In this document: positions 7,883 to 26,040 of the stretch, one piece after another
How the letters are laid out: each line of letters opens with the position of its first letter
Numbering within the stretch: position 1 is the stretch's first letter
NCBI GenBank assembly: GCA_009783685.1
Contig: WRCZ01000001.1
Span: forward strand, 1 to 42,953
Direction of reading: 5' to 3'
Length of the DNA: 42,953 bases
Source of the DNA: Actinomycetes bacterium
Lineage (GTDB): Bacteria > Actinomycetota > Actinomycetes > Streptomycetales > Streptomycetaceae
Made by a program: the position numbers and the translations under genes
The notes under the pieces: model-generated
Told to the model about the DNA's origin: nothing
Databases searched by the model: none
What the model saw: only the letters and a program-made list of their open reading frames with translations

Positions 7883-8701
7883 ATGGCGCGACGCAAGCGC
7901 GACGAGCCGGCCGGCGCGGGCCGCGACGAGCGGGCCCCGAACCGGTCGGCGGACCACGCCCAGGGCCGGCGCACCGGCCGCCGCGCCGCCGACCACGGCC
8001 GCTACGGCCGGCTGAGCCGGGAGCGCGTGCTGTCCACCGCCCTGGAACTGGTCGACCGGGAAGGGCTGTCCGCGCTGAGCATGCGCCGCCTCGGGTCCGA
8101 GCTGGGCGTGGAGGCGATGGCCCTGTACCGGTACGCCGCGGGCAAGGACGCGCTGCTGGACGGCCTGGTGGAGGCGCTCTACCTCGAACTGCGCGAACGG
8201 CTCGACGAGGGTGCCGAGGAAGGCGCGCGGCCGCCGGCGAAGGGCGGCGCCGAGGAGCCCGGATGGCGCAGCGAGCTGCACCGGATCGCGCGGGCGACCT
8301 ACCAGGTGGCCATGGCGCACCCCGAGGTGGTGCCGCTGCTGGCCACCCGCATGCTGGCGGTGCCGCTGGCCCGCCGCGCGCCGGCCGTGCTGAGCGCGCA
8401 GGAGGACATCCTGCGGCTGCTGGCGGCGGCCGGCCTGGACGAGGACACGGCAGCCGCCGCGTACCGGGCGGTCAGCGCCTGGCTGCTCGGCTACGTCTTC
8501 GCCGACCTGCAGGCCATGGTGGACAACCCCGACGAACCCGAGGCGGCCTTCCGGCTGGGCCTGTACCGGATGCCCGCCCACGACTTCCCCGAGCTGCGCG
8601 CGATCACCCCGGCGCTGGCCGAGCGCGGCGGCCCGCAGGGCCTGACCGAGGGCCTGGACGCCGTCCTCGACCCGTGGGTGCCGGGCCCGCCCCAGGACTG
8701 A
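7883..8701 (+). CDS. TetR/AcrR-family transcriptional regulator
   Basis: A 272-aa one-component regulator from ATG 7883, which has a purine-rich AAGGGG about 5-8 nt upstream; an in-frame TTG at 7820 would add 21 residues but lies beside the operator. After a basic, low-complexity N-terminal tail of about 45 residues comes the TetR helix-turn-helix (LSRERVLSTALELVDREG, then LSMRRLGSELGVEAMALYRY). The C-terminal two-thirds is an alpha-helical ligand and dimerisation domain of the Streptomyces TetR type. It is transcribed away from the glycosyltransferase operon, with a palindrome between them, so it is probably an autoregulator that represses the exopolysaccharide genes. The ligand cannot be told from sequence. 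Confidence 0.88.
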   Translation: MARRKRDEPAGAGRDERAPNRSADHAQGRRTGRRAADHGRYGRLSRERVLSTALELVDREGLSALSMRRLGSELGVEAMALYRYAAGKDALLDGLVEALYLELRERLDEGAEEGARPPAKGGAEEPGWRSELHRIARATYQVAMAHPEVVPLLATRMLAVPLARRAPAVLSAQEDILRLLAAAGLDEDTAAAAYRAVSAWLLGYVFADLQAMVDNPDEPEAAFRLGLYRMPAHDFPELRAITPALAERGGPQGLTEGLDAVLDPWVPGPPQD

Positions 8702-8751
8702 ACGCGGGGTTCAACGGACGCTCCCGGGGCGGGTCTTCGGCGCCGACCGGT

Positions 8752-10426
8752 TCAGCGGACCTCCAGCTTCCAGATCTGCGGCGCGAGCTTGTTGCACGTC
8801 CACTGCTGCACGTTGGCGCCGGGCGCGCCCGACCCGCCGGCCACGTCCAGGCACAGGCCGCTGCCGGTGTTGCGGAACGTCCAGTAGCCGTCGCCCTGGT
8901 TCAGGGCCTGCCAGCGCTGCGCCGGCGAGCCGTTGCAGCCCTCCTGGTCGACGTTGGCGCCGGGCGCGGTGCCCGAGCCCGCCACCGCCACGCACAGGCC
9001 GGAGTTCTGCCCGGTCAGGGTGAAGTCGCCGGCGGCCGTCCTGGTGAAGCGGAAGTTCTGCGGGCCGAGCCCGTTGCACGTCCACTGCTGGATGTTGCCG
9101 CCCACCACGCGGGAATCGGCGGACACGTCCAGGCAGTTGCCGCTGATGACGTTGATCAGCCGGTAGGTGCTGCCGGAGGCCAGGCCCGCCCCCGAGGAGT
9201 CCTGGGTGCCCTGCGACGAGCCGGTGGCGTAGAACGGCCGGCACTGGGTGCCGACGTAGTCGGTCGCGATCTCCAGCAGCTTCGTGCCGTCGGTGCTCGG
9301 CAGCAGCGACGAGCTGTAGTTGGGGCAGTAGCTGGCGTCGGGGGAGGGTACGGCGACCGGCGCGTCGACGGGGAACCAGTTGCCGCCGCCGTTCTCGGTG
9401 TTGACCAGGACGGTGCGCCCGCTCGTCGTCGCCAGCGCGCCGTTCGCCTCGCGGAACTGCTGCCCGACGAGCACCAGCCGGCCCGCCGCGGTGCCGTTCG
9501 CCAGCCAGGCGACGACGGGCGTGTGGGTGAAGTACTGGCCGGTCTCGGTGGTGATCATCGGGCCGATGTCGGTCGGCGGGCCCCAGTCGGCGCCGTCGGA
9601 GGACGTGCGGTAGTGCACGGCGCAGTCGTACTGGTTGCCGGTGCCGCACACCTCGTAGGTCATGTAGAAGCTGCCGTCGGCCCGTTGGACGACCGTGGCC
9701 ATGCCGGGGCGCAGTGCCTGGGTGGTCGGGGCGACGGTGGGGAAGGCGGGGCCCCAGGTGCGGCCGTCGGAGGAGAACCGCTCCTGCAGCGACTGGCTGT
9801 GCGCCGCGGGGTCGGTCTCGTCGGAGTAGTGGCAGACCAGGTCGCCCTCGCTGTCCACCGACAGTTCCGGCTCCCACAGCCCGCCGGTGTTGGACGCGGT
9901 GGCGCAGGGCGGCAGTTGCGACCAGGAGGTGCCGTGGTCCTGGCTCTGCCAGACGTCGAGGGACATCCGCCGGTCGGCCGGGCTCTGGCCGACCGAGGCG
10001 GCCCACAGCAGCGTGCCGGCCGGCATGGCGCCGATCTGCCGGGGCAGCTCGAAGAGGGTCGAGCAGCACAGCCCGTTGGCCGTCGCGGGGTCGTGGATGC
10101 CGCCGACCTCCTGGAACGTCGCGCCGTCGTCGGTGCTCCGGTAGATGACGCCGACGCCGCCGTTGGCGTCGAAGTCCACGACGCTGGCCACCAGTTGGCC
10201 GTTGGCCGCGCCGGAGTGGGCCAGCCGCACGACGCGCGGGTACAGGCCCGTGCCGTTGCGCAGGGCGGTGCCGGTGGCGTCCGGGCTCACCGTGGCGGAC
10301 GAGGCCGCGGCCGGTGGCGGTGTCCGGCCGCTGGCCGGCCCCGCCGCGGGCGAGACCACCGATCGACATCAGGACGAGGGCTGCCAGCGCGGCGAGCAGC
10401 CGGTGGAGGGACGGGGGGGTACGCAT
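8752..10426 (-). pseudogene. Secreted Asp-box (sialidase-like) protein with ricin-type lectin domain, apparently frameshifted
   Basis: The long frame (535 aa if started at GTG 10359) lacks a signal peptide. The adjacent frame upstream, from ATG 10426, encodes a classic one (MRTPPSLHRLLAALAALVL). Removing one base near 10357-10362 joins them into SIVVSPAAG and gives a 557-aa secreted protein. The first two-thirds has sialidase Asp-box motifs (STDDGATF, SSDGRTWGP, SSDGADWGP), pointing to a six-bladed propeller of the BNR/exo-sialidase superfamily. The last 130 residues form a ricin B-type beta-trefoil with CLDV...QQW...CNG and QRW/QIW repeats that binds carbohydrate. Likely role: extracellular glycan binding or hydrolysis. 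The catalytic arginine triad of true sialidases was not identified, so enzyme activity is uncertain. Without the repair the protein could be made from GTG 10359 but would stay in the cytoplasm. Confidence 0.75.
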
Positions 10427-12525: not shown

Positions 12526-12657
12526 GACTGCCCGAGTGGCGGTGTGCCCCTCACCCCGATGGTCGCCTTCGACCGCATCCGGCGGCGCGGCGCACGGTAC
12601 GCAGGGAGGAGACGCCGTTTTCTGGCGTATGTCGACCACAGCACCCAGGAGGCATCG

Positions 12658-13749
12658 ATGGCTGGTGCGAACTCGGCCACGCAGTCCCGCGCCGCCGGCG
12701 GCCCGGGTGCCGCGGCCGACGACCAGGACCCGATCCACATCCTCTGGATCAACGCAGGTCTCAGCTGCGACGGCGACTCGGTGTCGCTGACCGCGGCGAC
12801 CCTGCCGAGCATCGAGGAGATCGCCCTGCAGGGCCTGCCCGGCCTGCCCAAGATCGCGGTGCACTGGCCGCTGATCGACTTCGAGTGCGGCCCCACGCAG
12901 GGCGCCGACGCGTTCATCGAGTGGTTCTTCAAGGCCGAGCGCGGCGAGATCGACCCCTTCGTGCTGGTGGTGGAGGGCTCGATCCCCAACGAGGCGATCA
13001 AGGCCGAGGGCTACTGGTGCGGTTTCGGCGACAACCCCGAGACCGGCCAGCCGATCACCACCAGCGAGTGGATCGACCGGCTCGCCCCGAAGGCCCTGGC
13101 CGTCGTCGCCATCGGCACCTGCGCCACCTACGGCGGCATCCACGCCATGGAGGGCAACCCCACCGGCGCGATGGGCGTGCCCGACTACCTCGGCTGGGAC
13201 TGGAAGTCCTCGGCGGGCATCCCCATCGTGTGCGTGCCCGGCTGCCCGATCCAGCCCGACAACTTCGCCGAGACCCTGACCTACCTGCTGTACCAGGCGG
13301 CGGGCTCGGCGCCGATGATCCCGCTCGACGACAAGCTCCGGCCGACCTGGCTGTTCAACGCCACCGTGCACGAGGGCTGCGACCGGGCCGGCTACTACGA
13401 GCAGGGCGACTTCGCCACCACCTACGACTCGCCCAAGTGCCTGGTGAAGCTGGGCTGCTGGGGCCCGGTGGTGAAGTGCAACGTGCCCAAGCGCGGCTGG
13501 ATGGACGGCATCGGCGGCTGCCCCAACGTCGGCGGCATCTGCATCGCGTGCACCATGCCCGGCTTCCCCGACAAGTTCATGCCGTTCATGGACGAGCCGC
13601 CCGGCGCGAAGGTCTCCAGCACCGCGAGCGGCCTGTACGGAACGGTCATCCGCAGGCTGCGCGGCATCACCGCGAAGACGGTCGACGAGGAGCCCAAGTG
13701 GCGCCACACCGGCCGTGAACTGACCACCGGTTACAGCAAGCCCTGGTGA
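12658..13749 (+). CDS. hhyS: [NiFe]-hydrogenase small subunit, high-affinity actinobacterial type (group 1h/5)
   Basis: A 363-aa iron-sulfur electron-transfer subunit. The ATG at 12658 follows a good CAGGAGG site, and no Tat signal peptide precedes the protein, which fits the cytoplasm-facing location of this class. The N-terminal flavodoxin-like domain carries proximal-cluster ligands C37 and, at the place of the usual second cysteine (CxxC), D40 (SCDGD), plus cysteines in GTCATYGG and VPGCPIQPDN. The C-terminal part has the His/Cys distal-cluster set (HEGCDRAG, then cysteines in SPKCLVKLGCWGP) and the medial-cluster cysteines (GGCPNVGGICIACTMPGFP). The 3Cys-1Asp proximal cluster is a known trait of the Ralstonia eutropha actinobacterial hydrogenase. 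It takes electrons from the NiFe site and passes them toward the quinone pool. The hydrogenase would oxidise atmospheric-level H2. Confidence 0.96.
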   Translation: MAGANSATQSRAAGGPGAAADDQDPIHILWINAGLSCDGDSVSLTAATLPSIEEIALQGLPGLPKIAVHWPLIDFECGPTQGADAFIEWFFKAERGEIDPFVLVVEGSIPNEAIKAEGYWCGFGDNPETGQPITTSEWIDRLAPKALAVVAIGTCATYGGIHAMEGNPTGAMGVPDYLGWDWKSSAGIPIVCVPGCPIQPDNFAETLTYLLYQAAGSAPMIPLDDKLRPTWLFNATVHEGCDRAGYYEQGDFATTYDSPKCLVKLGCWGPVVKCNVPKRGWMDGIGGCPNVGGICIACTMPGFPDKFMPFMDEPPGAKVSSTASGLYGTVIRRLRGITAKTVDEEPKWRHTGRELTTGYSKPW

Positions 13750-13768: not shown

Positions 13769-15574
13769 ATGACGAAGGGCACGGCACTGACGATGGCACC
13801 CACCCCCACGGCCGCGGCGGACGGCAGCGGCCTGATGGAGATGTCCTGGGACCCGATCACCCGGATCGTGGGCAGCCTCGGCATCCACACGAAGATCGAC
13901 TTCAAGCAGAAGCGGGTCGCCGAGTGCTACAGCACCTCGTCGGTCTTCCGCGGCTACAGCGTCTTCATGCGCGGCAAGGACCCGCGCGACGCGCACTTCA
14001 TCACCAGCCGCATCTGCGGGATCTGCGGGGACAACCACGCCACCTGCTCGGTGTACGCGCAGAACATGGCGTACGGGGTGAAGCCGCCGCACCTGGGCGA
14101 GTGGCTGATCAACCTCGGCGAGTCCGCGGAGTACATGTTCGACCACAACATCTTCCAGGAGAACCTGGTCGGGGTCGACTACTGCGAGAAGATGGTCCGC
14201 GAGACCAACCCCGGCGTGCTGGAGCAGGCCGAGCGCACCGAGGCCCCGCACGCCGCCGAGCACGGCTACCGCACCATCGCCGACATCATGCGGTCCCTCA
14301 ACCCGCTGGAGGGCGAGTTCTACCGCGAGGCGCTCCAGGTGAGCCGCTACACGCGGGAGATGTTCTGCCTGATGGAAGGGCGCCATGTGCACCCGTCCAC
14401 GCTGTACGCCGGCGGCGTCGGCACGGTCGCGTCGGTGCAGCTGCTCACCGACTACCTGACGCGGCTCATGCGGTACGTGGAGTTCATGAAGCGCGTGGTG
14501 CCGCTGCACGACGACCTGTTCGACTTCTTCTACCAGGCGCTGCCCGGCTACGAGGAGGTCGGCCGCCGGCGGGTGCTGCTGGGCTGCTGGGGCGCGCTCA
14601 ACGACCCCGAGCACTGCGACTTCACCTACCGCAACATGACCGACTGGGGACGGAAGATGTTCGTCACCCCGGGCATCATCGTGGACGGGAAGCTGGTCAC
14701 CAACGACCTCACGCAGATCAACCTCGGCATCCGCATCCTGCTCGGCAGCTCGTACTACCAGGACTGGGAGGGGCAGGAGCAGTTCGTCACCCGCGACCCG
14801 CTCGGCAACCCGGTCGACCCCCGCCACCCCTGGAACCAGCACACCATCCCCGCGCCGCAGAAGCGGGACTTCGACGACAAGTACAGCTGGGTGATGTCGC
14901 CGCGCTGGTTCGACGGCAAGGACCACCTCGCGCTGGACACCGGCGGCGGCCCCATCGCCCGGCTGTGGTCCACCGCGCTGTCCGGCCTGGTCGACATCGG
15001 CTACGTCAAGGCCACCGGCCACAGCGTGGTGATCAACCTGCCGAAGTCGCTGACCAAGCCGGAGACCACCTTCGAGTGGAAGATCCCGCAGTGGAGCAAC
15101 GCGCTGGAGCGCAACCGCGCCCGCACGTACTTCCAGGCGTACTCGGCCGCCTGCGCCCTGTACTTCACCGAGCAGGCGCTCGCCGAGGTGCGCGCCGGCC
15201 GCACCCAGACCTGGGAGAAGTTCGAGGTGCCGGACGAGAGCATCGGCTGCGGCTTCACCGAGGCGGTGCGCGGCGTGCTCTCCCACCACATGGTCATCCG
15301 CGACGGCAAGATCGCCAACTACCACCCGTACCCGCCCACTCCGTGGAACGCCAGCGTCCGCGACAGCTACGGCACGCCAGGGCCCTACGAGGACGCGGTG
15401 CAGAACACCCCGATCTTCGAGGAGAACTCCCCGGAGAACTTCAAGGGCATCGACATCATGCGCGCCGTGCGCAGCTTCGACCCGTGCCTGCCGTGCGGGG
15501 TGCACATGTACGTCGGCGGCGGCAAGACGGTGGAGAAGATGCACGTGCCGACCGGCCTGAGCGGCCTGGCCTGA
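13769..15574 (+). CDS. hhyL: [NiFe]-hydrogenase large subunit, high-affinity actinobacterial type (group 1h/5)
   Basis: A 601-aa catalytic subunit. The four nickel-binding cysteines are in the L1 motif RICGICGDNH (R81, C83, C86, H90) and the L2 motif DPCLPCGVH (C573, C576, H579). The protein continues 22 residues past H579, a tail that a maturation endopeptidase would remove after Ni insertion; such a protease gene is in the operon. It starts 19 nt after hhyS; ATG 13769 and ATG 13793 are both possible, and neither has a strong ribosome site. The motif context (GDNHATCS, and the VHMYVGGG continuation) fits group 1h enzymes, which oxidise H2 at sub-atmospheric levels in air during carbon starvation and sporulation. 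The gene ends TGATG, overlapping the start of the next one. Confidence 0.97.
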   Translation: MTKGTALTMAPTPTAAADGSGLMEMSWDPITRIVGSLGIHTKIDFKQKRVAECYSTSSVFRGYSVFMRGKDPRDAHFITSRICGICGDNHATCSVYAQNMAYGVKPPHLGEWLINLGESAEYMFDHNIFQENLVGVDYCEKMVRETNPGVLEQAERTEAPHAAEHGYRTIADIMRSLNPLEGEFYREALQVSRYTREMFCLMEGRHVHPSTLYAGGVGTVASVQLLTDYLTRLMRYVEFMKRVVPLHDDLFDFFYQALPGYEEVGRRRVLLGCWGALNDPEHCDFTYRNMTDWGRKMFVTPGIIVDGKLVTNDLTQINLGIRILLGSSYYQDWEGQEQFVTRDPLGNPVDPRHPWNQHTIPAPQKRDFDDKYSWVMSPRWFDGKDHLALDTGGGPIARLWSTALSGLVDIGYVKATGHSVVINLPKSLTKPETTFEWKIPQWSNALERNRARTYFQAYSAACALYFTEQALAEVRAGRTQTWEKFEVPDESIGCGFTEAVRGVLSHHMVIRDGKIANYHPYPPTPWNASVRDSYGTPGPYEDAVQNTPIFEENSPENFKGIDIMRAVRSFDPCLPCGVHMYVGGGKTVEKMHVPTGLSGLA

Positions 15575-16128
15575 TGGCGGCACAGGACGCACGCCCGGCC
15601 CGGCCCGCGGAGGCCACCGCGCGCCGGGTCGAGGAGATCCTCGAACGCCTCGCCGCACACGGCGACCCCGCGGTGGCCCGCACCGCGGAGGACCTCGTCA
15701 GTGCCCTGATGGAGTTCTACGGCAGCGGGCTGGCCCGGGTGGTCGCGCTGCTGTCCGGCCGCAGCGGCACGCCGCTGGAGGCGCTGCTGGACGACGAACT
15801 GGCCGCCGGGCTGCTGGTGCTGCACGACCTGCACCCCGACGACCTGGCCCGGCGCGTGCAGCGTGCGCTGCGCGCGGCCGACGCCGCGTCGGCCGAAGTG
15901 ACCGCGCTGGACGCCGAGTCGGGGCTGCTGCGGCTGCGCGAGGAGGGCGCCGGCGGCTGCGGCTGCGGCGCCGGCGCGGCCCGCGGGCGGATCGAGGACG
16001 CCCTCGCCTGCTTCGCACCGGAGGTCGTCTCCGTCGAGTTCGAGGAGCCCGAGACGGGCGCGCGCGAACCGGTCCTGCTGCAGATCGGCACCCGCCCGCC
16101 CGGGGCGCGGCCGGCGGACGCCCGGTGA
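15574..16128 (+). CDS. NifU-like iron-sulfur protein of the hydrogenase operon
   Basis: A 184-aa protein whose ATG shares a base with the hhyL stop (TGATG). The N-terminal part is helical and acidic (VEEILERLAAHGD; LMEFYGSGLARVVALL). The C-terminal half resembles the NifU C-terminal domain, with a GGCGCG cluster near residues 127-132 and a further cysteine in ALACFAPEVVSVEF. NifU C-domains hold and pass on Fe-S clusters. A protein of this type is a regular neighbour of group 1h hydrogenases. It may supply or repair clusters of HhyS (including the odd Asp-ligated one) or act as an electron carrier; this is inference. Start choice is firm because of the overlap and the residue pattern. Confidence 0.8.
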   Translation: MAAQDARPARPAEATARRVEEILERLAAHGDPAVARTAEDLVSALMEFYGSGLARVVALLSGRSGTPLEALLDDELAAGLLVLHDLHPDDLARRVQRALRAADAASAEVTALDAESGLLRLREEGAGGCGCGAGAARGRIEDALACFAPEVVSVEFEEPETGAREPVLLQIGTRPPGARPADAR

Positions 16129-16778
16129 GGGCGGCCGGCGCCGCGCCCGGACTGCGCAGGTTCCTCACCCCCCGCACCGACGCCGGAACCGAGTGCTGCG
16201 AGCTGTGCTCCCTCGAACTCGGCCCCGGCCACCGCCATCTCGTCGACGTCGAGCAGCGGTCGCTGGCCTGCGCCTGCCAGGCGTGCGCCGTGCTGTTCGA
16301 CCGGCCGGGCGCCGGCGGAGGGCGGTTCCGCACCGTGCCGGACCGCTACCTCACCGACCCGGCGTGGCAGGCCGACCCGGTGCGCTGGCAGGCCCTGCAG
16401 ATCCCCGTCGACATGGCGTTCTTCTTCCGCAACTCCGCGCTCGAACGGCTGGTCGCGCTCTATCCGAGCCCGGCGGGGGCCACCGAGAGCGAGGTCCAGC
16501 AGGACGCCTGGGACGCGGTGTTCGGCGACTCGCCGCTGGCGCACGAACTGCAGCCCGACGTCGAGGCGTTGCTGGTGCGCCGCACCGACCACGGCGACAC
16601 CTGCCACCTGGTGCCGGTCGACGCGGCCTACCAGCTCGTGGGCCGGCTGCGGATGCACTGGCAGGGCTTCGACGGCGGCGCCCTGGTGCACCGCGAAGTC
16701 GACGCGTTCTTCGACGACCTGAACCGCAGGGCGCAGGCGGTCACCGCGACCGCCGGTGAGGGAGGCAACGTTCCGTGA
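16125..16778 (+). CDS. Uncharacterised hydrogenase-operon protein with two CxxC-type motifs (DUF5947-like)
   Basis: A 217-aa protein starting at GTG, overlapping the NifU-like gene by GTGA. Near the N terminus it has two cysteine pairs, CCELC (residues about 24-28) and CACQAC (about 48-53), about 20 residues apart. This spacing suits a zinc ribbon or an iron/Fe-S site. The rest is a soluble alpha/beta protein rich in aromatic residues (VDMAFFFRNSALERLVALYPSP), without membrane helices. It matches what I remember of a family (DUF5947) found beside group 1h hydrogenases. No reaction is known to me. The cysteines and tight coupling suggest a role in assembling or wiring the enzyme. Function is open. 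Confidence 0.75.
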   Translation: MRAAGAAPGLRRFLTPRTDAGTECCELCSLELGPGHRHLVDVEQRSLACACQACAVLFDRPGAGGGRFRTVPDRYLTDPAWQADPVRWQALQIPVDMAFFFRNSALERLVALYPSPAGATESEVQQDAWDAVFGDSPLAHELQPDVEALLVRRTDHGDTCHLVPVDAAYQLVGRLRMHWQGFDGGALVHREVDAFFDDLNRRAQAVTATAGEGGNVP

Positions 16779-17452
16779 CCAGCTTCGACTTCGCGTGCAC
16801 CGGAGTGCGGGCAGACCCCTATGCGGCCGGCCCCACGCTGGTGTTCCGGCTGCGGATCACCGCGCCCGGCGACCAGCCCGTGCACGCCGTGGCGCTGCGC
16901 TGCCAGATCCGCATCGAACCGGCGCTGCGCCGCTACGGCGACCGGGAGGCCGACGGGCTCGGCGACCTGTTCGGCGACCGGTCGCGGTGGGGGAGCACCC
17001 TCAACCCGCTGCAGTTCGCCCAGGTCTCCCTGGTCTGCCCCGGGTTCACCGGCGAGACCGAGGTCGACGTGCCGGTGCCCTGCACCTACGACATGGACAT
17101 CGCCGCCACCAAGTACTTCGAGGCACTGGAGGAGGGCGCGGCACCGCTGCTGATGCTCTTCTCCGGTATCGCCTTCCGCGGCCCCGGCGGCTTCCAGGTG
17201 GAGCCGATCCCCTGGGACAAGGAGGCCCCGGTGCGGCTGCCGGTCGCCGTCTGGCGGGAGATGATGGACCAGCACTTCCCCGGCTGCGGCTGGCTCCGGC
17301 TGCCCCGCGACACCATGGAGGCGCTGCGGGCGTTCCGCTCCCGGCACGCGCTGCCGTCGTGGCAGCACACCATGGAGGCACTGCTCGGCGCCGCCGAGGG
17401 CGCCACCGTGCTCCCCGCCGCCCAGGCCCCGGTGGAGGTGGCGGCGCCGTGA
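16775..17452 (+). CDS. Uncharacterised hydrogenase-operon protein (DUF6084-like)
   Basis: A 225-aa soluble protein, GTG start, overlapping the previous gene by 4 nt. The sequence looks like a beta-rich scaffold: an N-terminal strand pattern (SFDFACTGVRADPYAAGPTL, VFRLRITAPG), a cysteine in ALRCQIRI, then CPGFTGETEVDVPVPCTYDMD and a C-terminal helix region. There is no signal peptide, no membrane helix and no clear catalytic motif. It resembles DUF6084, known to me only as a conserved neighbour of actinobacterial hydrogenases. Because its coding region is linked by overlaps on both sides, it is likely made in fixed ratio with its neighbours and may be a chaperone or a structural subunit. Function unknown. 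Confidence 0.73.
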   Translation: MTSFDFACTGVRADPYAAGPTLVFRLRITAPGDQPVHAVALRCQIRIEPALRRYGDREADGLGDLFGDRSRWGSTLNPLQFAQVSLVCPGFTGETEVDVPVPCTYDMDIAATKYFEALEEGAAPLLMLFSGIAFRGPGGFQVEPIPWDKEAPVRLPVAVWREMMDQHFPGCGWLRLPRDTMEALRAFRSRHALPSWQHTMEALLGAAEGATVLPAAQAPVEVAAP

Positions 17453-18885
17453 ACCCCGTTGCCCCGCCCGCCGCCGCGCCCTGCTTCGACACCGCCCGCG
17501 CGGTCGCCGACGTCGTGCTCTTCGAGGGCTACGTGCTCTACCCCTACCGCGCGTCCGCGGCGAAGAACCGGATGCGCTGGCAGTTCGGCGTGCTGGTGCC
17601 CCCCGCCTGGGGCGACCGCAACGGCGAACACAGCGCCATGCGCACCGAGATCCTGATGGAGCCGCGCGGCGACGCGACCCTGCACGCCGAGGTGCGGTTC
17701 CTGCGCGCCCAGCGGCGGACCGTCGAACGCGCCCTGCCCGACGGCGGGTTCGAGCCGTCCGGGTCGCTGGAGCTGCCCGACCGGGTACTCGTCCCCTGGG
17801 ACGAGGGCGTGGTGGAGACCGCCGAACTCACCTGCGCCGTCGCCGATCTGCAGGCCGCGGTGGACGGCGGTCTGGCGCTGCCGTTCCGCCGCCCCGCCGG
17901 CCAGGACACCGAGGACGTGCGGGACTCCGGCGGCACGCTGATCGGCCGGCTGGTGCGCCGCCGCGAGCAGGTCGACGGGGTCCTGCGGCTGTCCGCCACC
18001 GAACTGCCCGGGCCCTACCGGGCGTTGCGGCTGACCGCGGTGGTGGAGAACACCGGTGCCTGGCAGCCGGCCGACGGCGGCCCCGCCGACCGGGAGGCGG
18101 CGCTGCCGCACGCCCTGGTCTCCGCGCACCTGATGCTCGGGCTGAGCGCGGGCGCCTTCCTGTCCATGACCGATCCACCGGAATGGGCGCGGGCCGCGGC
18201 CGTGGAGTGCCGCAACGAGCAGACCTGGCCCGTGCTGGCCGGCGCCGCGGCCCGCGACGACGTGGCGCTCTCGCTGCCGATCGTCCTGGAGGACCACCCG
18301 GGCATCGCCCCCGAGAGCCCCGGCGCCCTCTACGACGCCACCGAGATCGACGAGATCCTCGCGCTGCGCACGGCCGCCCTCACCGACCAGGAGAAGCGGG
18401 AGGCGCGCGGCACCGACGAGCGTGCCGGCGCGGTGATCGACCTGGCCGACTCGATGCCGCCCGAGGTGCTGGAGCGCCTGCACGGCGCGGTCCGCTCGCT
18501 GCGCGAGGTCACCGGCCCGCCGGTCCTCACCACACCGGACCCGGAAGCCGACCTGGACGAGCTGCTCCGGCCGGACACCCCGTGGTGGGACCCGGCCGCC
18601 GACCGCAGCGTCGACCCGGAGCGCGACCGCGTGCCCGTCGACGGCGTCCTGGTCGGCGCCGGCAGCCGCGTCCGGCTGCGCCCGGGCAAGCGCCGCACCG
18701 ACGCGCAGGACATCTTCCTGCACGGCCGCACCGCACTCGTCGAGGCGGTCCTGCACGACGTCGACGGCGGGGTGCACGTCGCGGTCACCGTCGACGGCGA
18801 TCCGGGCGCGGAACTGCGCCGCGCCCAGGGCCGGTTCCTGTACTTCCAGCCCGACGAACTGACCCCGGTGGAGGACGGCGCGTGA
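17449..18885 (+). CDS. Large uncharacterised hydrogenase-operon protein
   Basis: A 478-aa protein starting at GTG 17449 (GTGA overlap with the DUF6084-like gene) and ending in a GTGA overlap with the protease gene. The N-terminal 250 residues begin with VVLFEGYVLYPYRASAAKNRMRWQFG and look beta-rich. The middle is acidic and helical (DATEIDEILALRTAALTDQEKREARG). The last 90 residues (about GSRVRLRPGKRRTDAQDIFLHG onward to RFLYFQPDEL) look like a compact beta-barrel domain that I recall from other hydrogenase-linked proteins. It has few cysteines, no signal peptide and no membrane helix. Size and context suggest a dedicated assembly factor or partner of the hydrogenase. No function can be assigned. 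Confidence 0.75.
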   Translation: MNPVAPPAAAPCFDTARAVADVVLFEGYVLYPYRASAAKNRMRWQFGVLVPPAWGDRNGEHSAMRTEILMEPRGDATLHAEVRFLRAQRRTVERALPDGGFEPSGSLELPDRVLVPWDEGVVETAELTCAVADLQAAVDGGLALPFRRPAGQDTEDVRDSGGTLIGRLVRRREQVDGVLRLSATELPGPYRALRLTAVVENTGAWQPADGGPADREAALPHALVSAHLMLGLSAGAFLSMTDPPEWARAAAVECRNEQTWPVLAGAAARDDVALSLPIVLEDHPGIAPESPGALYDATEIDEILALRTAALTDQEKREARGTDERAGAVIDLADSMPPEVLERLHGAVRSLREVTGPPVLTTPDPEADLDELLRPDTPWWDPAADRSVDPERDRVPVDGVLVGAGSRVRLRPGKRRTDAQDIFLHGRTALVEAVLHDVDGGVHVAVTVDGDPGAELRRAQGRFLYFQPDELTPVEDGA

Positions 18886-19502
18886 ACGGCGGCAGCGGGA
18901 GCGAAGCCGGCCCGAGCGACGACGGCGTCCCCGGCCCGGTCGGGAACGACCGTGCGCGGGACGGCGGTTCGGGATCTCCGCGGCGGGTCCTCGTCGCGGG
19001 ACTGGGCAACATCTTCGCCGGCGACGACGGATTCGGCGTGGAGGCCGTGCAGCGGCTCGCCCGCCGGCCCCTGCCGCCCGGCGTGGAGACCGCCGACATC
19101 GGAGTGCGCGGCGTCCACCTGGCGTACCAACTGCTCGACGGCTACGACACCGTGGTGCTGCTCGACGCCACCGCGCGCGGCGGCGTCCCCGGCACCGTCT
19201 ACCGCATCGACGGTGCCGAGGCCGACCGCCCCGAGGGCGACGTGCTCATCGACGGCCACCGGATGACGCCCGACGCGGTCCTCGCGCTGCTGGACACCCT
19301 CAGCGCGGGCACCGGCGGCACCCGGCCCGGGCGCGTCACGGTGATCGGCTGCGAACCCGCCGTGCTGGCGGAGGGCATGGGCCTGAGCCCGGCCGTCGCC
19401 GGCGCGGTGGAGCCGGCCGTGGAGGCCGTCCTCGGCCTGCTCCGCGAGGAGCCGGGCACATCCGACCGGGCCCCTGCGGGGGCGGACGAGGCGAGGAGGT
19501 GA
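18882..19502 (+). CDS. Hydrogenase maturation endopeptidase (HyaD/HybD/HoxM family)
   Basis: A 206-aa protein, GTG start, 4-nt overlap with the preceding gene. After a variable N-terminal tail of about 34 residues the conserved core begins: VLVAGLGNIFAGDDGFG (residues 36-52). The expected nickel-sensing ligands are E54, D95 (VVLLDA) and H126 (IDGHRMTP), the three residues seen in HybD-type proteases. It checks Ni in the large subunit and cuts the C-terminal tail after the L2 histidine; HhyL here has a 22-residue tail for it to remove. The N-terminal tail is longer than in most family members (about 160 aa), so a later start cannot be ruled out, although the overlap supports this one. The stop lies within the ribosome site of the next small gene. 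Confidence 0.9.
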   Translation: MNGGSGSEAGPSDDGVPGPVGNDRARDGGSGSPRRVLVAGLGNIFAGDDGFGVEAVQRLARRPLPPGVETADIGVRGVHLAYQLLDGYDTVVLLDATARGGVPGTVYRIDGAEADRPEGDVLIDGHRMTPDAVLALLDTLSAGTGGTRPGRVTVIGCEPAVLAEGMGLSPAVAGAVEPAVEAVLGLLREEPGTSDRAPAGADEARR

Positions 19503-19507
19503 TCGTA

Positions 19508-19606
19508 GTGAAGTACGTGCTCGGTGCCGTCCTCGGCGGACTCGCCGCCGTCGTGGCGACGTCCCTGCCCGACGTCAGGCGCTACCTGAAGATGCGCGCG
19601 ATGTGA
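19508..19606 (+). CDS. 32-residue single-span membrane micropeptide (DUF6893-like)
   Basis: A very short gene: GTG 19508, TGA 19604-19606. The start has an ideal GGAGG at 19495-19499, which overlaps the end of the protease gene; a GTG at 19499 would lie on top of that site. The product is one hydrophobic helix of about 17 residues (YVLGAVLGGLAAVVATSL) followed by a basic end (PDVRRYLKMRAM), predicted to sit in the inner membrane with its positive C terminus in the cytoplasm. I recall a conserved small family (DUF6893) at this place in actinobacterial hydrogenase operons. The hydrogenase subunits have no membrane helix of their own, so this peptide could anchor the enzyme or an assembly partner near the quinone pool. 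That role is inference. Confidence 0.72.
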   Translation: MKYVLGAVLGGLAAVVATSLPDVRRYLKMRAM

Positions 19607-19610
19607 CCCA

Positions 19611-19658
19611 CGGGGCCGCACCGCTGCCGCCGAACGGGCGATGGCGGCAGCGGCCCCG
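19611..19658 (+). terminator. Strong hairpin between the micropeptide gene and hypA
   Basis: CCGCTGCCGCC (19621-19631) pairs perfectly with GGCGGCAGCGG (19643-19653) across an 11-nt loop. A further CGGGG/CCCCG pair (19611-19615, 19654-19658) extends it past a 5-nt bulge. It begins 4 nt after the micropeptide stop. No U-tract follows, which is common for actinobacterial hairpins. It may be a partial terminator or an mRNA-processing element that lowers hyp gene expression relative to hhySL. Confidence 0.55.
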
Positions 19659-19747
19659 CGGCGTGGCGGGCCCCCTGCCCCACCGGCGGCCCCTGTACTG
19701 GACTCGGCCGCGGGACACCCCTCCGGCGGCCGCGTCAGGGAGTGACC

Positions 19748-20125
19748 ATGCACGAGATGTCCATCGCACTGGCCGTCGTCGGCCAGGTCGAGGACGCCGC
19801 GCGCTCCCACGGCCACACCGCCGTCGAGTCGGTGGCGCTGCGGGTCGGGGAGCTGGCCGGAGTGGTGCCCGACGCCCTGCGGTTCTGTTTCGAACTCGCC
19901 TGTGAGAACACCCTGCTGGCGGGGGCCACGCTCCTCACCCAGCAGGTGCCGGGACGCGCTTCCTGCGCCCCGTGCGGGTCGGACTGGGACACCGGACTGC
20001 CCCCGCAGCTGTGCTGCCCGTGCTGCGGGGGTGCCGCAGGCGGCCTGCTGTCCGGCAGGGAACTGGAGATCGCCGAGGTGCGCTGGGCCGACGCCGGTGC
20101 CGCCACGGCCTGTCAGGAGGTGTGA
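19748..20125 (+). CDS. hypA: HypA, hydrogenase nickel-insertion chaperone
   Basis: A protein of 125 aa when started at ATG 19748. This start is preferred over GTG 19742 because HypA must begin Met-His-Glu: H2 and the N-terminal amine bind nickel. The zinc site is the two cysteine pairs in CAPCGSDWDTGLPPQ and LCCPCCGG. The core (SIALAVVGQVEDAA; RVGELAGVVPDALRFCFELA) matches the family throughout. It receives Ni with HypB and delivers it to the large subunit. It begins the hyp half of the locus after a 141-nt gap holding a hairpin, and its stop overlaps a possible upstream start of hypB. Confidence 0.95.
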   Translation: MHEMSIALAVVGQVEDAARSHGHTAVESVALRVGELAGVVPDALRFCFELACENTLLAGATLLTQQVPGRASCAPCGSDWDTGLPPQLCCPCCGGAAGGLLSGRELEIAEVRWADAGAATACQEV

Positions 20126-20130
20126 CGACC

Positions 20131-20967
20131 ATGTGCCGTGCCGCGGACCTGCAGACGGCGGTGCTCGCCAAGAACGACGAGGGGGCCAGGGACCTGCGGG
20201 CGCGCATGGCGGCGCGCGGCACGGCCCTGGTCAACCTGATGTCGAGCCCCGGAAGCGGCAAGACCGCGCTGCTGGAGGCCGAGTTGGGGCTGGCGCGCGA
20301 GCGCGGCCTGGCGGTGGCGGCGCTGACCGCGGACCTCGCCACCGAGAACGACGCCCGGCGGCTGGCCCGTTCGGGCGTGCCGGTGCGGCAGGTGCTCACC
20401 GACGGGCTGTGCCACCTGGAGACCGACATGCTCGGCCGGCACCTCGACGGGTGGCCCGAGCAGGACGTCCGGCTGCTGTTCGTGGAGAACGTCGGCAACC
20501 TGGTGTGCCCGGCGTCCTACGACCTCGGCGAGTCGCTGCGGGTGGTGCTCGCCTCGGTCACCGAGGGCGAGGACAAGCCGCTGAAGTACCCCACCGCCTT
20601 CGGGCTCGCGCACCTGGTGGTCGTCACCAAGAACGACATCGCCGAGGCCGTGGAGTTCGACCGCGAGGCGTTCCTCGGCCACGTCCGGCAGGTCAACCCC
20701 GGGGTGGAGGTGGTGTTCACCTCCGCGCGCAGCGGCGAGGGGGCCGGGCTGCTGCTCGACCGGGCGCTGGCGGTCGCCGACGGCGCCGCCCCGCACCGGC
20801 CGGTGATGGCCACCGCCACCGTCGCACTCGTCGAGGACGGGCACGCGCATGCGCACGCCTTCGGCCTCGGGCACGGCCACCCGCACGCCCACGCACACCC
20901 CCATCCGCACGACCCCGCCGACGCGCACGACGGCGCGCACGACGGCGCGCCCGCCGCGGCCCGCTGA
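20131..20967 (+). CDS. hypB: HypB, nickel-handling GTPase with a C-terminal histidine-rich tail
   Basis: A 278-aa SIMIBI-class GTPase. The P-loop is SSPGSGKT, followed by ALTADLATENDARRL, the VENVGNLVCPASYD segment with the dimer-site cysteine, and the guanine-specificity motif TKND. ATG 20131 has AGGAGG 10 nt upstream; GTG 20122 overlaps that site too closely. It hydrolyses GTP while handing Ni to HypA and the hydrogenase. The histidine-rich Ni-storage stretch, usually near the N terminus, is here at the C terminus: about 12 histidines in the last 45 residues (for example HAHAHAFGLGHGHPHAHAHP). The N terminus is short and lacks the CxxCGC motif of many HypBs. Next is hypF, 15 nt downstream. 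Confidence 0.95.
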   Translation: MCRAADLQTAVLAKNDEGARDLRARMAARGTALVNLMSSPGSGKTALLEAELGLARERGLAVAALTADLATENDARRLARSGVPVRQVLTDGLCHLETDMLGRHLDGWPEQDVRLLFVENVGNLVCPASYDLGESLRVVLASVTEGEDKPLKYPTAFGLAHLVVVTKNDIAEAVEFDREAFLGHVRQVNPGVEVVFTSARSGEGAGLLLDRALAVADGAAPHRPVMATATVALVEDGHAHAHAFGLGHGHPHAHAHPHPHDPADAHDGAHDGAPAAAR

Positions 20968-20982
20968 GACGGCCGCACCCCG

Positions 20983-23436
20983 ATGACCGCGGAACCCGCC
21001 GCGCCCGCAGCTCCCGCACCCCCGCTCGCGGGGTCCGCGCCGGTCCCCGTGACGCGCCGCAGGGTCACCGTGCGCGGTGTCGTCCAGGGCGTGGGGTTCC
21101 GGCCGTACGTGTACGCGCTGGCCGGTGAACTCGGCCTGTGCGGGCAGGTGACCAACACCGGCGAGGGCGTGGTCGCCGAGGTCGAGGGCCCGGCGGAGGC
21201 GACCGCGGCCTTCTGCGACCGGATCGGCGGAGAGGCGCCGCCGCTGGCCGTGGTGCAGTCCGTCGACCACCTCGCGGTCCCGCCGCAGGGCGACACCGCG
21301 TTCCACATCGTGGCGTCCCGGCAGGACGGGCCCCGCCGCACGCTGGTCGCGCCGGACACCGCGACGTGCGACGCGTGCCTGGCCGAACTGCGCGACCCGG
21401 CCGACCGCCGGTACCGGCACCCGTTCATCACCTGCACCCACTGCGGACCGCGGTTCACCATCGTCACCGCGCTGCCCTACGACCGCGCGCACACCACCAT
21501 GGCGGCGTTCCCGATGTGCCCGCGCTGCGAGCGGGAGTACACCGACCCCGCGGACCGCCGCTTCCACGCCCAGCCGGTCGCCTGCCACGACTGCGGGCCG
21601 CGACTGCGGCTGCTGCTCGGCGGCCCGGCAGGTCACGCAGCGGACCGCAGCGGTGAACCGGTCGCCCGCGCACGGCAGTTGCTGGCCGAGGGCGCGATCC
21701 TCGCCGTCAAGGGGCTGGGCGGCTACCACCTGGCCTGCGACGCGGCGAACGAGGACGCGGTGCGCACGCTGCGGCGCCGCAAGGCCCGCGGGGACAAGCC
21801 GTTCGCCGTGATGGCCGCCGGCGCCCACGACGTCGAGCCGCTGGTGCACCTCGACGCCGTCGAACGCGCGCTGCTCACCGGGATCCGCCGGCCCATCGTG
21901 CTGCTGCGTCGCCGGGCCGGCGCCGGGGGAGCGGGCGGCGCCGGGACCGGACCCGCGGTGCTCGCCCCGTCGGTGGCGCCCGGCTGCGCCGACCTCGGCG
22001 TCATGCTGCCCTACACGCCGCTGCACCACCTGCTGCTCGGGCTGCCCGGCGACCCGCCGGGCCCGCGGCTGCTGGTGATGACCAGCGGCAACCTCGGCGG
22101 CGAACCCATCGTCACCCGCGACGACGAGGCGCTGGAGCGGCTCGCGCCGCTCGTCGACGGCTGGCTCGCCCACGACCGCCCGATCCACGTCCCCTGCGAC
22201 GACTCGGTGGTACGGGTCGTCGACGGCCAGGAGCTGCCGGTCCGGCGCTCCCGTGGCCACACGCCGTTCCCGGTGCCGCTGCCCGTCCCGGTCCTCCCGT
22301 CGCTCGCGGTCGGCGGCGACCTGAAGAACACCTTCTGCCTCGGCGAGGGCCGCCAGGCGTGGCTGTCCGCGCACGTCGGCGACATGGACGACCTGGCCAC
22401 GCTCACCGCCTTCGCGCACGCGGAGCGGCACCTGGAGGACATCACCGGCGTCACCCCGCAGGTCGTGGCCGCCGACCGCCACCCGGGATACCGCTCGGGC
22501 CGGCTCGCCGAGCGCATGCACGGGCCGCGGCTGCGCCGGGTGCAGCACCACCACGCGCACGTCGCCGCGGTGATGGCGGACAACGGCCACGACGGCCGCA
22601 GCCCCGTCATCGGGATCGCCTTCGACGGCACCGGCGCGGGTGACGACGGCGCGGTGTGGGGCGGCGAGGTGCTGGTCGCCGACTACGACGGCTACCGGCG
22701 CGCCGCCCATCTCCGGTACACCCCGCTGCCCGGCGGCGACGCCGCCGTCCGGCACCCGTACCGGATGGCACTCGCCCATCTGCGCGCGGCGGGCCTGCCC
22801 TGGGATCCGGCACTGCCCTGCACCGCCGCCTGCCCGGAAGCGGAACGCGCCGTGCTGCAACGGCAGTTGGACCGCGGGCTGCACTGCGTGCCGACGTCCA
22901 GCATGGGGCGCCTGTTCGACGCGGTGTCCTCGCTGGTCGGTCTGTGCCACCACGCCACCTACGAGGCGCAGGCCGCCGTCGAACTGGAGGCGGCCGCCGC
23001 GTCGTTCGAAGGATCGCACGCCGAACTCCCCGGCTACGCGTTCGCGTTCACCCCGGCGGTCCGGAGCGCGGGGGAGCCCGCCCCGCTGCTGCTCGACCCC
23101 GCACCCGTCCTGGCGGCCGTCGTCGCCGACCTTGCCGCGGGCGTCGCCCCGGACCGCATCGCCGCCGCCTTCCACGCGGCCGTCGCCGGTGCGGTGCGGG
23201 CGGTGTGCGGGCGGCTGCGCGAGCGGACCGGCATCGGCTGCGTCGCGCTGAGCGGCGGGGTGTTCGCCAACGCCCTGCTGTCCTCGGCCTGTTGCCGCGG
23301 GCTGCGCGAGGACGGCTTCACGGTGCTGCGCCACCGCCTGGTGCCGCCCAACGACGGCGGGCTCGCCCTCGGCCAGCTCGTCGTGGCGGCGCGGGCGGCG
23401 CACCCCGCCGACCGGACCCTTCAACCGGAAGCCTAG
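20983..23436 (+). CDS. hypF: HypF, carbamoyltransferase for cyanide ligand synthesis
   Basis: An 817-aa protein with the full HypF domain order. Residues about 25-110 form the acylphosphatase domain (VVQGVGFRPYVYALA). Two zinc fingers follow, CDAC...CTHC and CPRC...CHDC (about 130-210). Next is the YrdC-like nucleotide-binding domain (LAVKGLGGYHLACDA) and then the Kae1-like C-terminal domain with metal-site histidines (HHHAHVAAVMADNG) and AFDGTGAGDDGAVWGGE. It turns carbamoyl phosphate and ATP into carbamoyl-adenylate and moves the carbamoyl group to the HypE C-terminal cysteine. An extra proline/alanine-rich N-terminal tail of about 24 residues makes it slightly longer than usual. No domain is missing. 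Confidence 0.96.
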   Translation: MTAEPAAPAAPAPPLAGSAPVPVTRRRVTVRGVVQGVGFRPYVYALAGELGLCGQVTNTGEGVVAEVEGPAEATAAFCDRIGGEAPPLAVVQSVDHLAVPPQGDTAFHIVASRQDGPRRTLVAPDTATCDACLAELRDPADRRYRHPFITCTHCGPRFTIVTALPYDRAHTTMAAFPMCPRCEREYTDPADRRFHAQPVACHDCGPRLRLLLGGPAGHAADRSGEPVARARQLLAEGAILAVKGLGGYHLACDAANEDAVRTLRRRKARGDKPFAVMAAGAHDVEPLVHLDAVERALLTGIRRPIVLLRRRAGAGGAGGAGTGPAVLAPSVAPGCADLGVMLPYTPLHHLLLGLPGDPPGPRLLVMTSGNLGGEPIVTRDDEALERLAPLVDGWLAHDRPIHVPCDDSVVRVVDGQELPVRRSRGHTPFPVPLPVPVLPSLAVGGDLKNTFCLGEGRQAWLSAHVGDMDDLATLTAFAHAERHLEDITGVTPQVVAADRHPGYRSGRLAERMHGPRLRRVQHHHAHVAAVMADNGHDGRSPVIGIAFDGTGAGDDGAVWGGEVLVADYDGYRRAAHLRYTPLPGGDAAVRHPYRMALAHLRAAGLPWDPALPCTAACPEAERAVLQRQLDRGLHCVPTSSMGRLFDAVSSLVGLCHHATYEAQAAVELEAAAASFEGSHAELPGYAFAFTPAVRSAGEPAPLLLDPAPVLAAVVADLAAGVAPDRIAAAFHAAVAGAVRAVCGRLRERTGIGCVALSGGVFANALLSSACCRGLREDGFTVLRHRLVPPNDGGLALGQLVVAARAAHPADRTLQPEA

Positions 23437-23451
23437 AGCGAGGAGAACGGC

Positions 23452-23789
23452 ATGTGCCTGGCGGTGCCCGGCAAGGTCATGGAGATCGAGGAACGCGACG
23501 GGACGCGGATGGCGACCGTCGACTTCGGCGGTGTGGTCAAGGACGTGTGCCTGGAGTACCTGCCGGACCTCAAGGTCGGCGAGTACACCATCGTGCACGT
23601 CGGCTTCGCGCTGCAAAGGCTCGACGAGGAGTCCGCCCTGCAGAGCCTGGCGCTGTTCCAGAACCTCGGACTCCTGGAGGAGGAGTTCGGCGACCCCTGG
23701 GAGCAGGCCGCGGGCGCGGCCGCGGAGCCTGCCCCGACCGACGAGGGGCGGGGGCCCGCCCACCCGCGCACCGCTGAGGAGGCCCGACG

Positions 23790-23793
<4 letters not shown>
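23452..23793 (+). CDS. hypC: HypC, Fe(CN)2CO scaffold/chaperone
   Basis: A 113-aa protein that begins MCLAVPGKV, where C2 binds the iron being assembled, and has the conserved histidine in [11 protein letters not shown]. The first 80 residues are a typical HypC beta-barrel. An Ala/Pro/Glu-rich tail of about 30 residues (after EEFGDPW) is an extension absent from most family members. A GAGGAG ribosome site precedes the ATG. It works with HypD, carries the Fe centre and escorts it to the large subunit. The gene ends in a GTGA overlap with hypD, consistent with a HypCD complex made in equal amounts. Confidence 0.95.
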
Positions 23794-24906
<1,113 letters not shown>

Positions 24907-24914
<8 letters not shown>

Positions 24915-26040
24915 CACCACCGGCATCCCGGCCGCCGGCAGCGGCACCGGCACGTCCGCGGGCCCCGTCCCCGCGCAGACGACCGCGCCCGCCCCGGACT
25001 TCTCCGGCTGGACCTGTCCCGCGCCGCTGCGCGACCTGCCCCGGATCGTCATGGGGCACGGCGGCGGTGGGGCGCTGAGCGCCGAACTCGTCGAGCACGT
25101 CTTCGCGCCGGCCTTCGGCGGCCCGGTCCTCGCCGGGCTCGGCGACTCGGCCCGCATCGAACTCGGCGGCGCGCGGCTGGCGTTCAGCACCGACTCGTAC
25201 GTGGTGCGGCCGCTGTTCTTCCCCGGCGGCAGCATCGGCGACCTGGCGGTCAACGGCACCGTCAACGACCTGGCGATGAGCGGGGCGCGGGCCGCGTACC
25301 TGTCCTGCGGCTTCATCCTGGAGGAGGGGGTGTCCGTGGCCGTGGTGGCCGAGGTCGCCCGCGCCCTGGGGGCGGCCGCCCGCACGGCGGGCGTCGAGGT
25401 GGCCACCGGCGACACCAAGGTGGTCGAGTCCGGCCACGGCGACGGCATCTACGTCAACACCGCCGGCATCGGCCTGATCCCCGACGGCGTGGACATCAGG
25501 CCGCAGCGCGCGGTGCCCGGCGACGTCGTGATCGTCAGCGGGCCCGTCGGGCAGCACGGGGTGGCCATCATGAGCGTGCGCGAGGGACTGGAGTTCGGCG
25601 TCGAGATCCAGAGCGACTGCGCCGCGCTCGGCGGCCTGGTGCAGGCGATGCTCGACGTGACCCCGGACCTGCACGTCCTGCGCGACCCGACGCGCGGCGG
25701 CCTCGCGGCGGCGCTGAACGAGATCGCCGACGCGGCCTCGGTGGGCGTCGTGGTGCACGAGAACCGCGTGCCGGTGCCGCCCGAAGTGGCCAACGCCTGC
25801 GCCGTGCTGGGCCTCGACCCGTGGTACGTGGCGAACGAGGGCAAGCTGGTGGCGTTCGTGCCCCGGCAGGACGCCGACGCGGTGCTGGCCGCCATGCGCG
25901 CCCACCCGCTCGGCGCCGGGGCGGCGGTCATCGGGGAGTGCGTCCCGGACCACCCCGGCATGGTGGTGGCGCGCACGGCCCTGGGCGGCACCCGTGTGGT
26001 CGACCTCCCGCTGGGGGAGCAACTGCCGCGGATCTGCTGA
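24907..26040 (+). CDS. hypE: HypE, carbamoyl dehydratase for cyanide ligand synthesis
   Basis: A 377-aa PurM-like ATPase. The start appears to be the rare codon TTG at 24907, inside the end of hypD, with GGAGG about 10 nt upstream; the first 35 residues are low-complexity, so a slightly later start is possible. The core shows [15 protein letters not shown] and [18 protein letters not shown]. It ends PRIC: the last-residue cysteine that receives the carbamoyl group from HypF and is dehydrated to thiocyanate for transfer to HypC-HypD iron. It is the last gene of the cluster; its stop codon lies in the terminator stem. Confidence 0.96.

Follow-up and report, generated by a model that had tools for sequence, protein, structure and literature searches.

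Group 1h hydrogenases are regarded as a main soil sink of atmospheric H2. How does such an enzyme, which has no membrane helix, reach the membrane and pass on its electrons? Both its attachment and its electron hand-over have been stated to be unresolved (PMC7174314, PMC6883350), and the usual cytochrome b anchor is missing from the Hhy operon (PMC6883350). The Hyd-1h subunits of Methylacidiphilum strain SolV have no membrane anchor, and activity is mostly membrane associated through an unknown partner; the Methylacidiphilum group 1h enzyme loses affinity on purification (PMC7174314). Hydrogenase activity of M. smegmatis was chiefly in the membrane fraction, according to the part of PMC4767420 that cites Greening 2014.

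Here we analyze a hydrogenase cluster in a 42,953-nucleotide stretch of Streptomycetaceae DNA (the window). The first-pass annotation had pointed to a mini-gene in this cluster and proposed its product as a plausible anchor of the hydrogenase.

A 32-codon gene in a group 1h hydrogenase cluster

The order of the cluster is hypX, hhyS, hhyL, hhyE-position gene, DUF5947 gene, DUF6084 gene, the gene for a 478-residue protein, protease gene, micropeptide gene, and hypABFCDE (Table 1). The sole PDB relative of HhyL at an E value of up to 1e-60 was 5aa5, HofG of C. necator, which fits an assignment to group 1h. No significant Pfam match was obtained with the window copy of the hhyE-position gene. The 478-residue protein occurs throughout group 1h clusters, including those of C. 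necator and Methylocystis. The direct neighbors of the micropeptide gene differ between clusters and can be the protease gene, hypA, hypF, or hypC. On a plasmid of Mycobacterium intracellulare subsp. chimaera (L167, 18862-25731), a nuo (complex I) set directly follows the hhy cluster.

Table 1. Features of the hydrogenase cluster (window coordinates)
Feature	Position	Strand	Remarks
hhyS, hydrogenase small subunit	12544..13749	+	No membrane-helix-like segment
hhyL, group 1h large subunit	13769..15574	+	PDB match 5aa5 HofG, 1107 bits
hhyE-position gene	15574..16128	+	C. necator and Mycobacterium homologues NifU-like
DUF5947 protein	16125..16778	+	PF19372
DUF6084 protein	16775..17452	+	PF19562
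Conserved 478-aa Hhy-cluster protein	17449..18885	+	No Pfam family
HycI/HyaD-type hydrogenase maturation protease	18882..19502	+	PF01750
Shine-Dalgarno AGGAGG	19494..19499	+	8-nt spacer to GTG start
Micropeptide gene, 32 aa, PF21833/DUF6893	19508..19606	+	GTG start 19508-19510, TGA stop 19604-19606
11-bp inverted repeat, RNA hairpin	19620..19654	+	z -3.4; just 3' of the micropeptide stop
Conserved non-coding element	19631..19700	+	CGAACGG box 19631-19637, CTGTACTG box 19693-19700
Maturation operon hypA, hypB, hypF, hypC, hypD, hypE	19742..26040	+	

The 32 codons at 19508-19603 translate to MKYVLGAVLGGLAAVVATSLPDVRRYLKMRAM. The description of a GTG-started mini-gene with an excellent ribosome site was borne out, because AGGAGG lies 8 nt upstream of the start and a TGA closes the frame. 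The stretch AGGAGGTGATC pairs with the 16S anti-Shine-Dalgarno sequence across 11 nt, and comparable Shine-Dalgarno sites lie 5' of the homologous micropeptide genes. An earlier in-frame GTG at 19499 overlaps the protease stop codon (TGA, 19500-19502). We disfavor it as the start because it would coincide with the ribosome site.

The micropeptide belongs to a Pfam family and its frame is conserved

The micropeptide is a member of PF21833 (E value of 3.4e-14; 53 bits, with a curated cut-off of 24.6), and the match is full length, with residues 2-32 on positions 2-32 of the 32-position profile. Its own genome has one PF21833 copy. In Pfam this family is DUF6893, with no function given; the first-pass annotation had overlooked it. 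An NCBIfam search with the micropeptide returned no model, and no paper in the open-access literature that we searched names DUF6893.

For conservation analysis, a HhyL search, which returned only Streptomycetaceae and relatives, provided 80 loci. Four were short or truncated, and the 76 Streptomycetaceae loci that extend far enough downstream all have a micropeptide in the same place. Between close pairs, dN/dS was 0.26 in the micropeptide frame, and the two alternative frames gave 1.14 and 2.26. (Close pairs were taken because the overall pN/pS of 0.71 over 28 codons is saturated; that value was not used.) Substitutions at the three codon positions numbered 84, 59, and 178, so that the third position varies most. 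Judged by these patterns, the frame is under purifying selection. Together with the 76 of 76 conservation, this means that the frame is not lost in related operons, which was the outcome named in advance as counting against the gene.

Conservation is concentrated in the 12-residue tail, residues 21-32 (PDVRRYLKMRAM). Counting from the C terminus, all 76 loci share R(-8), Y(-7), and M(-1); D(-11) is shared by 75, and P(-12) by 74. The tail motif of this main form is P-D-h-x-R-Y-h-K/R-I/M-x-x-M-stop. The C-terminal RY....M is conserved in the PF21833 alignments and is present in the micropeptide. Changes in the helix part are chiefly between hydrophobic residues. The product had been described as a hydrophobic helix with a basic tail. 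The helix stands, whereas calling the tail basic understates it: this is a specific motif with an invariant R, an invariant Y, and a final M.

The micropeptide is the membrane-helix-like product of the cluster

The hydrophobic segment of the micropeptide covers approximately residues 3-20 and is short, about 17 residues. Its 17-residue Kyte-Doolittle maximum, 2.15, was the highest among 15 cluster proteins, followed by HypF at 1.79. HhyS and HhyL reached 1.40 and 1.10, which agrees with the earlier claim that they have no membrane helix. No other product of the conserved 15-gene cluster is clearly membrane-helix-like. AlphaFold2 modeled residues 2-31 as a single continuous helix (pLDDT of 80.5; this model is of the peptide alone and is silent on partners). 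One Lys is N terminal and several Arg/Lys residues are in the tail, and the positive-inside rule applied to these charges predicts an N-out/C-in topology, which would suit a cytoplasmic hydrogenase. There is no cysteine, histidine, or cofactor motif.

The micropeptide co-occurs with HhyL

Among 200 Streptomycetaceae genomes surveyed, 130 have HhyL and 106 have PF21833. Every one of the 106 PF21833 genomes also has HhyL, and none of the 70 genomes without HhyL has PF21833 (Fisher, 1.4e-33). In 105 instances the peptide gene followed hhyL on the same strand at a distance of 3,649-4,755 nt (median, 3,898), and the other two were on separate contigs. When type-2 relatives (see below) and two subthreshold copies are included, the peptide is present in 126 of the 130 HhyL genomes. 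Three of the 130 have a cluster with no peptide (G182, G369, and G555), and in one more the cluster is cut by a contig edge.

The 148 Mycobacterium genomes surveyed gave both proteins in 84, HhyL only in one, and the peptide only in two. The HhyL-only genome (G659) has a peptide copy under the Pfam cut-off. Of the peptide-only genomes, G635 has a contig that stops before hhyL, and in G150 the cluster is a relic that retains a fragment of hhyS. In a phylum sample of 396 genomes, PF21833 was found in 36, and 27 of these have a group 1h HhyL. In four of the others (G189, G216, G290, and G371), PF21833 lies in a truncated group 1h accessory cluster or in a genome that has one. The remaining five comprise relics (G150 and G195), probable chance matches (G214 and G262), and a 45-base match at a contig edge (G269). 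We took the matches in G214 and G262 as chance because they are substretches of long frames.

In sixteen genomes of this phylum sample, the only HhyL-like proteins are 38-46% identical and belong to other hydrogenase groups. Fourteen of them have no peptide; in one of the remaining two it lies in a truncated group 1h accessory cluster, and in the other it is the 45-base match at a contig edge. Therefore, the peptide is tied to group 1h rather than to hydrogenase maturation in general. Both co-occurrence and synteny with hhyL were found, as for a component of the group 1h cluster, and on these genome comparisons the association is strong.

Some PF21833 copies have unusual surroundings. In two relic clusters (L129 of G150, 8311-9430, and L133 of G195, 8780-9375), hhyL and most structural genes are deleted, and the peptide and the protease, whole or truncated, remain. 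Locus L131 has two copies (7327-7416 and 8259-8348) flanking the protease. L130 has a second copy (1045-1134) on the opposite strand and close to a HypC-like gene. We considered whether the second copies in L128 and L130 represent nonhydrogenase contexts and rejected this, since a HypC-like gene adjoins each (judged by eye). A strong copy on contig C155 of G189 (L126, 2469-2561) is beside acyl-CoA dehydrogenase-like and ferredoxin-like frames, and this 4.3-kb contig has no hydrogenase genes.

Relatives in another phylum and a diverged form

Cupriavidus necator H16 encodes MKGFLKYLVLPALVVALLANIKDIRRYIRIRSM on pHG1, between the protease gene and hypF (PF21833, 38.9 bits). Methylocystis parvus encodes a relative with the motif, MGLFEIILGLLILALIAFNFRDIVRYIKITMM, between the protease gene and hypC; a Pfam search did not recognize it. 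Both are missing from the gene table used, which describes itself as incomplete. We had expected no peptide in C. necator, for which a cytoplasmic enzyme is reported, and this expectation was rejected.

These relatives bear on whether the frame is real. A spurious frame, or a mere translational-coupling leader for hypA, might be suspected: the gene is very short, it overlaps longer mechanical open reading frames on both strands, and its homologues are often unannotated in incomplete gene tables. However, selection at the amino acid level, the invariant tail, and conservation across phyla argue otherwise, and in Mycobacterium, Cupriavidus, and Methylocystis the peptide gene does not precede hypA. 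We regard this explanation as extremely improbable, and for the spurious frame we take conservation as refuting it. The micropeptide gene is a genuine, conserved, and probably translated member of the group 1h hydrogenase operon.

A divergent Streptomyces clade with a rearranged cluster, which we call type 2 (HhyL sharing 80% or more identity with that of S. cattleyicolor; no DUF6084 detected), gave no PF21833 match in Pfam searches of its clusters. The idea that these clusters have no peptide at all was nevertheless rejected, because 18 of 19 loci encode a relative of approximately 43-52 residues after the DUF5947 gene. Its motif, P-G/S-h-x-R-E-h-R/K-h-W/Y-R/K-M, is in the same register and is followed by approximately 6-13 further residues. 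A profile comparison of the main form and the type-2 relative (P value of 8.7e-6; probability, 83%) makes a common origin likely but not certain. In a lineage with approximately 65% HhyL identity, the peptide was undetected in two complete clusters (L150 and L152).

A conserved non-coding element follows the gene

In the gap between the micropeptide gene and hypA, a [CG]GAA[CT]GG box was found in 62 of 76 loci, versus 2.0 expected by shuffling the same gap (L046-L125). A second box, [CT]T[GC]TA[AC]TG, is exactly 61 nt downstream in 32 of the 38 loci that have both; the two boxes of the window are 62 nt apart. The pair resembles an activator site and a -10 box for the hyp operon and is a probable control region. 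Because the hairpin and the conserved boxes come after its stop codon, we suggest that the micropeptide gene closes the structural operon.

This arrangement matters for the main rival to a docking role, in which the micropeptide would serve assembly or maturation of group 1h enzymes specifically. It would be a membrane peptide that brings the protease or the Hyp machinery to the nascent enzyme and is absent from the finished complex. The micropeptide gene adjoins the maturation protease gene in most clusters, on either side; the relics without hhyL (G150 and G195) keep both genes, and G182 has lost both. However, the hairpin and box in the window set the peptide apart from the hyp operon, as the final gene of the structural one, and it is absent from 14 of the 16 genomes that have other hydrogenase groups only. 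Furthermore, the type-2 relative keeps its place next to hhySL-hhyE-DUF5947 where the protease gene is elsewhere or on the opposite strand (the latter in four of the six loci where it was seen). We consider a maturation role rather unlikely.

Discussion

The simplest reading of the micropeptide is as a docking micro-subunit. Starting from what was observed of the gene, its conservation, its specificity, and its hydrophobicity, we infer its membrane insertion, its topology, its binding to HhySL or HhyE, and its effect on electron transfer, as follows. One helix would span the membrane, its N terminus facing out and its basic tail facing the cytoplasm. The invariant tail would bind the HhySL dimer or an electron transfer partner (HhyE, or DUF5947 and its neighbors). 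This contact would keep the enzyme at the membrane and thereby let electrons from H2 pass to the quinone pool. Docking is favored over a catalytic or redox function because cysteine, histidine, and cofactor motifs are absent. From the sequence evidence, we put the chance that the micropeptide is a single-pass micro-subunit docking cytoplasmic HhySL at the membrane at about even. We propose more tentatively, and at somewhat less than even chances, that DUF6893 is an overlooked, near-universal group 1h micro-subunit whose tail docks the enzyme and which is needed for high-affinity, quinone-coupled oxidation of atmospheric H2.

What speaks most strongly against simple anchoring is C. necator, in which the peptide accompanies an enzyme described as cytoplasmic and of low affinity (PMC7174314). 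Also against docking are the clusters that have no peptide (L150, L152, G182, G369, and G555), the shortness of the hydrophobic segment, the relics G150 and G195, which have no hhyL, and the varying neighbors. Small accessory subunits of terminal oxidases provide a model for another role, in which the micropeptide would be a quinone-side or stabilizing subunit on the small subunit, HhyE, or a respiratory complex, rather than an anchor. The same genetic evidence fits such a subunit as well as it fits docking, and a conserved tail in which R, Y, and M never vary points to a specific contact with protein or lipid headgroups over bulk anchoring. However, the micropeptide has no cofactor-binding residues, and we consider this role unlikely.

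The question of attachment and electron hand-over becomes directly testable with a 96-base gene that occurs in almost all group 1h clusters examined, is absent without the enzyme, and can readily be deleted in laboratory strains. The association also gives DUF6893 a first functional context. Gene finders mostly overlook this small gene, and gene tables of group 1h clusters can lack a conserved component.

What was already known is DUF6893 as a domain of unknown function; the link to group 1h and the type-2 and Methylocystis relatives are added here. In the open-access literature searched, we found neither the tie to group 1h, nor the extension to a diverged form, nor the docking hypothesis.

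Two known systems invite comparison. The cytochrome b subunit of group 1d [NiFe]-hydrogenases may share a role with the micropeptide, namely membrane attachment and a link to quinone (PMC6883350). However, that subunit carries heme and passes electrons, whereas the micropeptide consists of a single helix and lacks cofactor residues. The first-pass annotation had drawn a loose parallel with HucM, which is likewise a separate small protein that accompanies a helix-less atmospheric-H2 hydrogenase (the group 2a Huc of Mycobacterium smegmatis) and is proposed to link it to the membrane. HucM has 188 residues and forms a tetrameric coiled-coil stalk that scaffolds an oligomer (PMC10017518), whereas the micropeptide has 32 residues and one helix, far from the size and coiled coil of the HucM family. 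A PDB search with the micropeptide returned no chain at an E value of up to 10, and thus no similarity to HucM. The parallel therefore holds as an analogy of role and fails in sequence, size, and architecture, so that HucM is a functional analogy at most. We see the micropeptide as a candidate accessory subunit of a respiratory hydrogenase, small and in the membrane, with no relationship to the subunits of this kind described so far.
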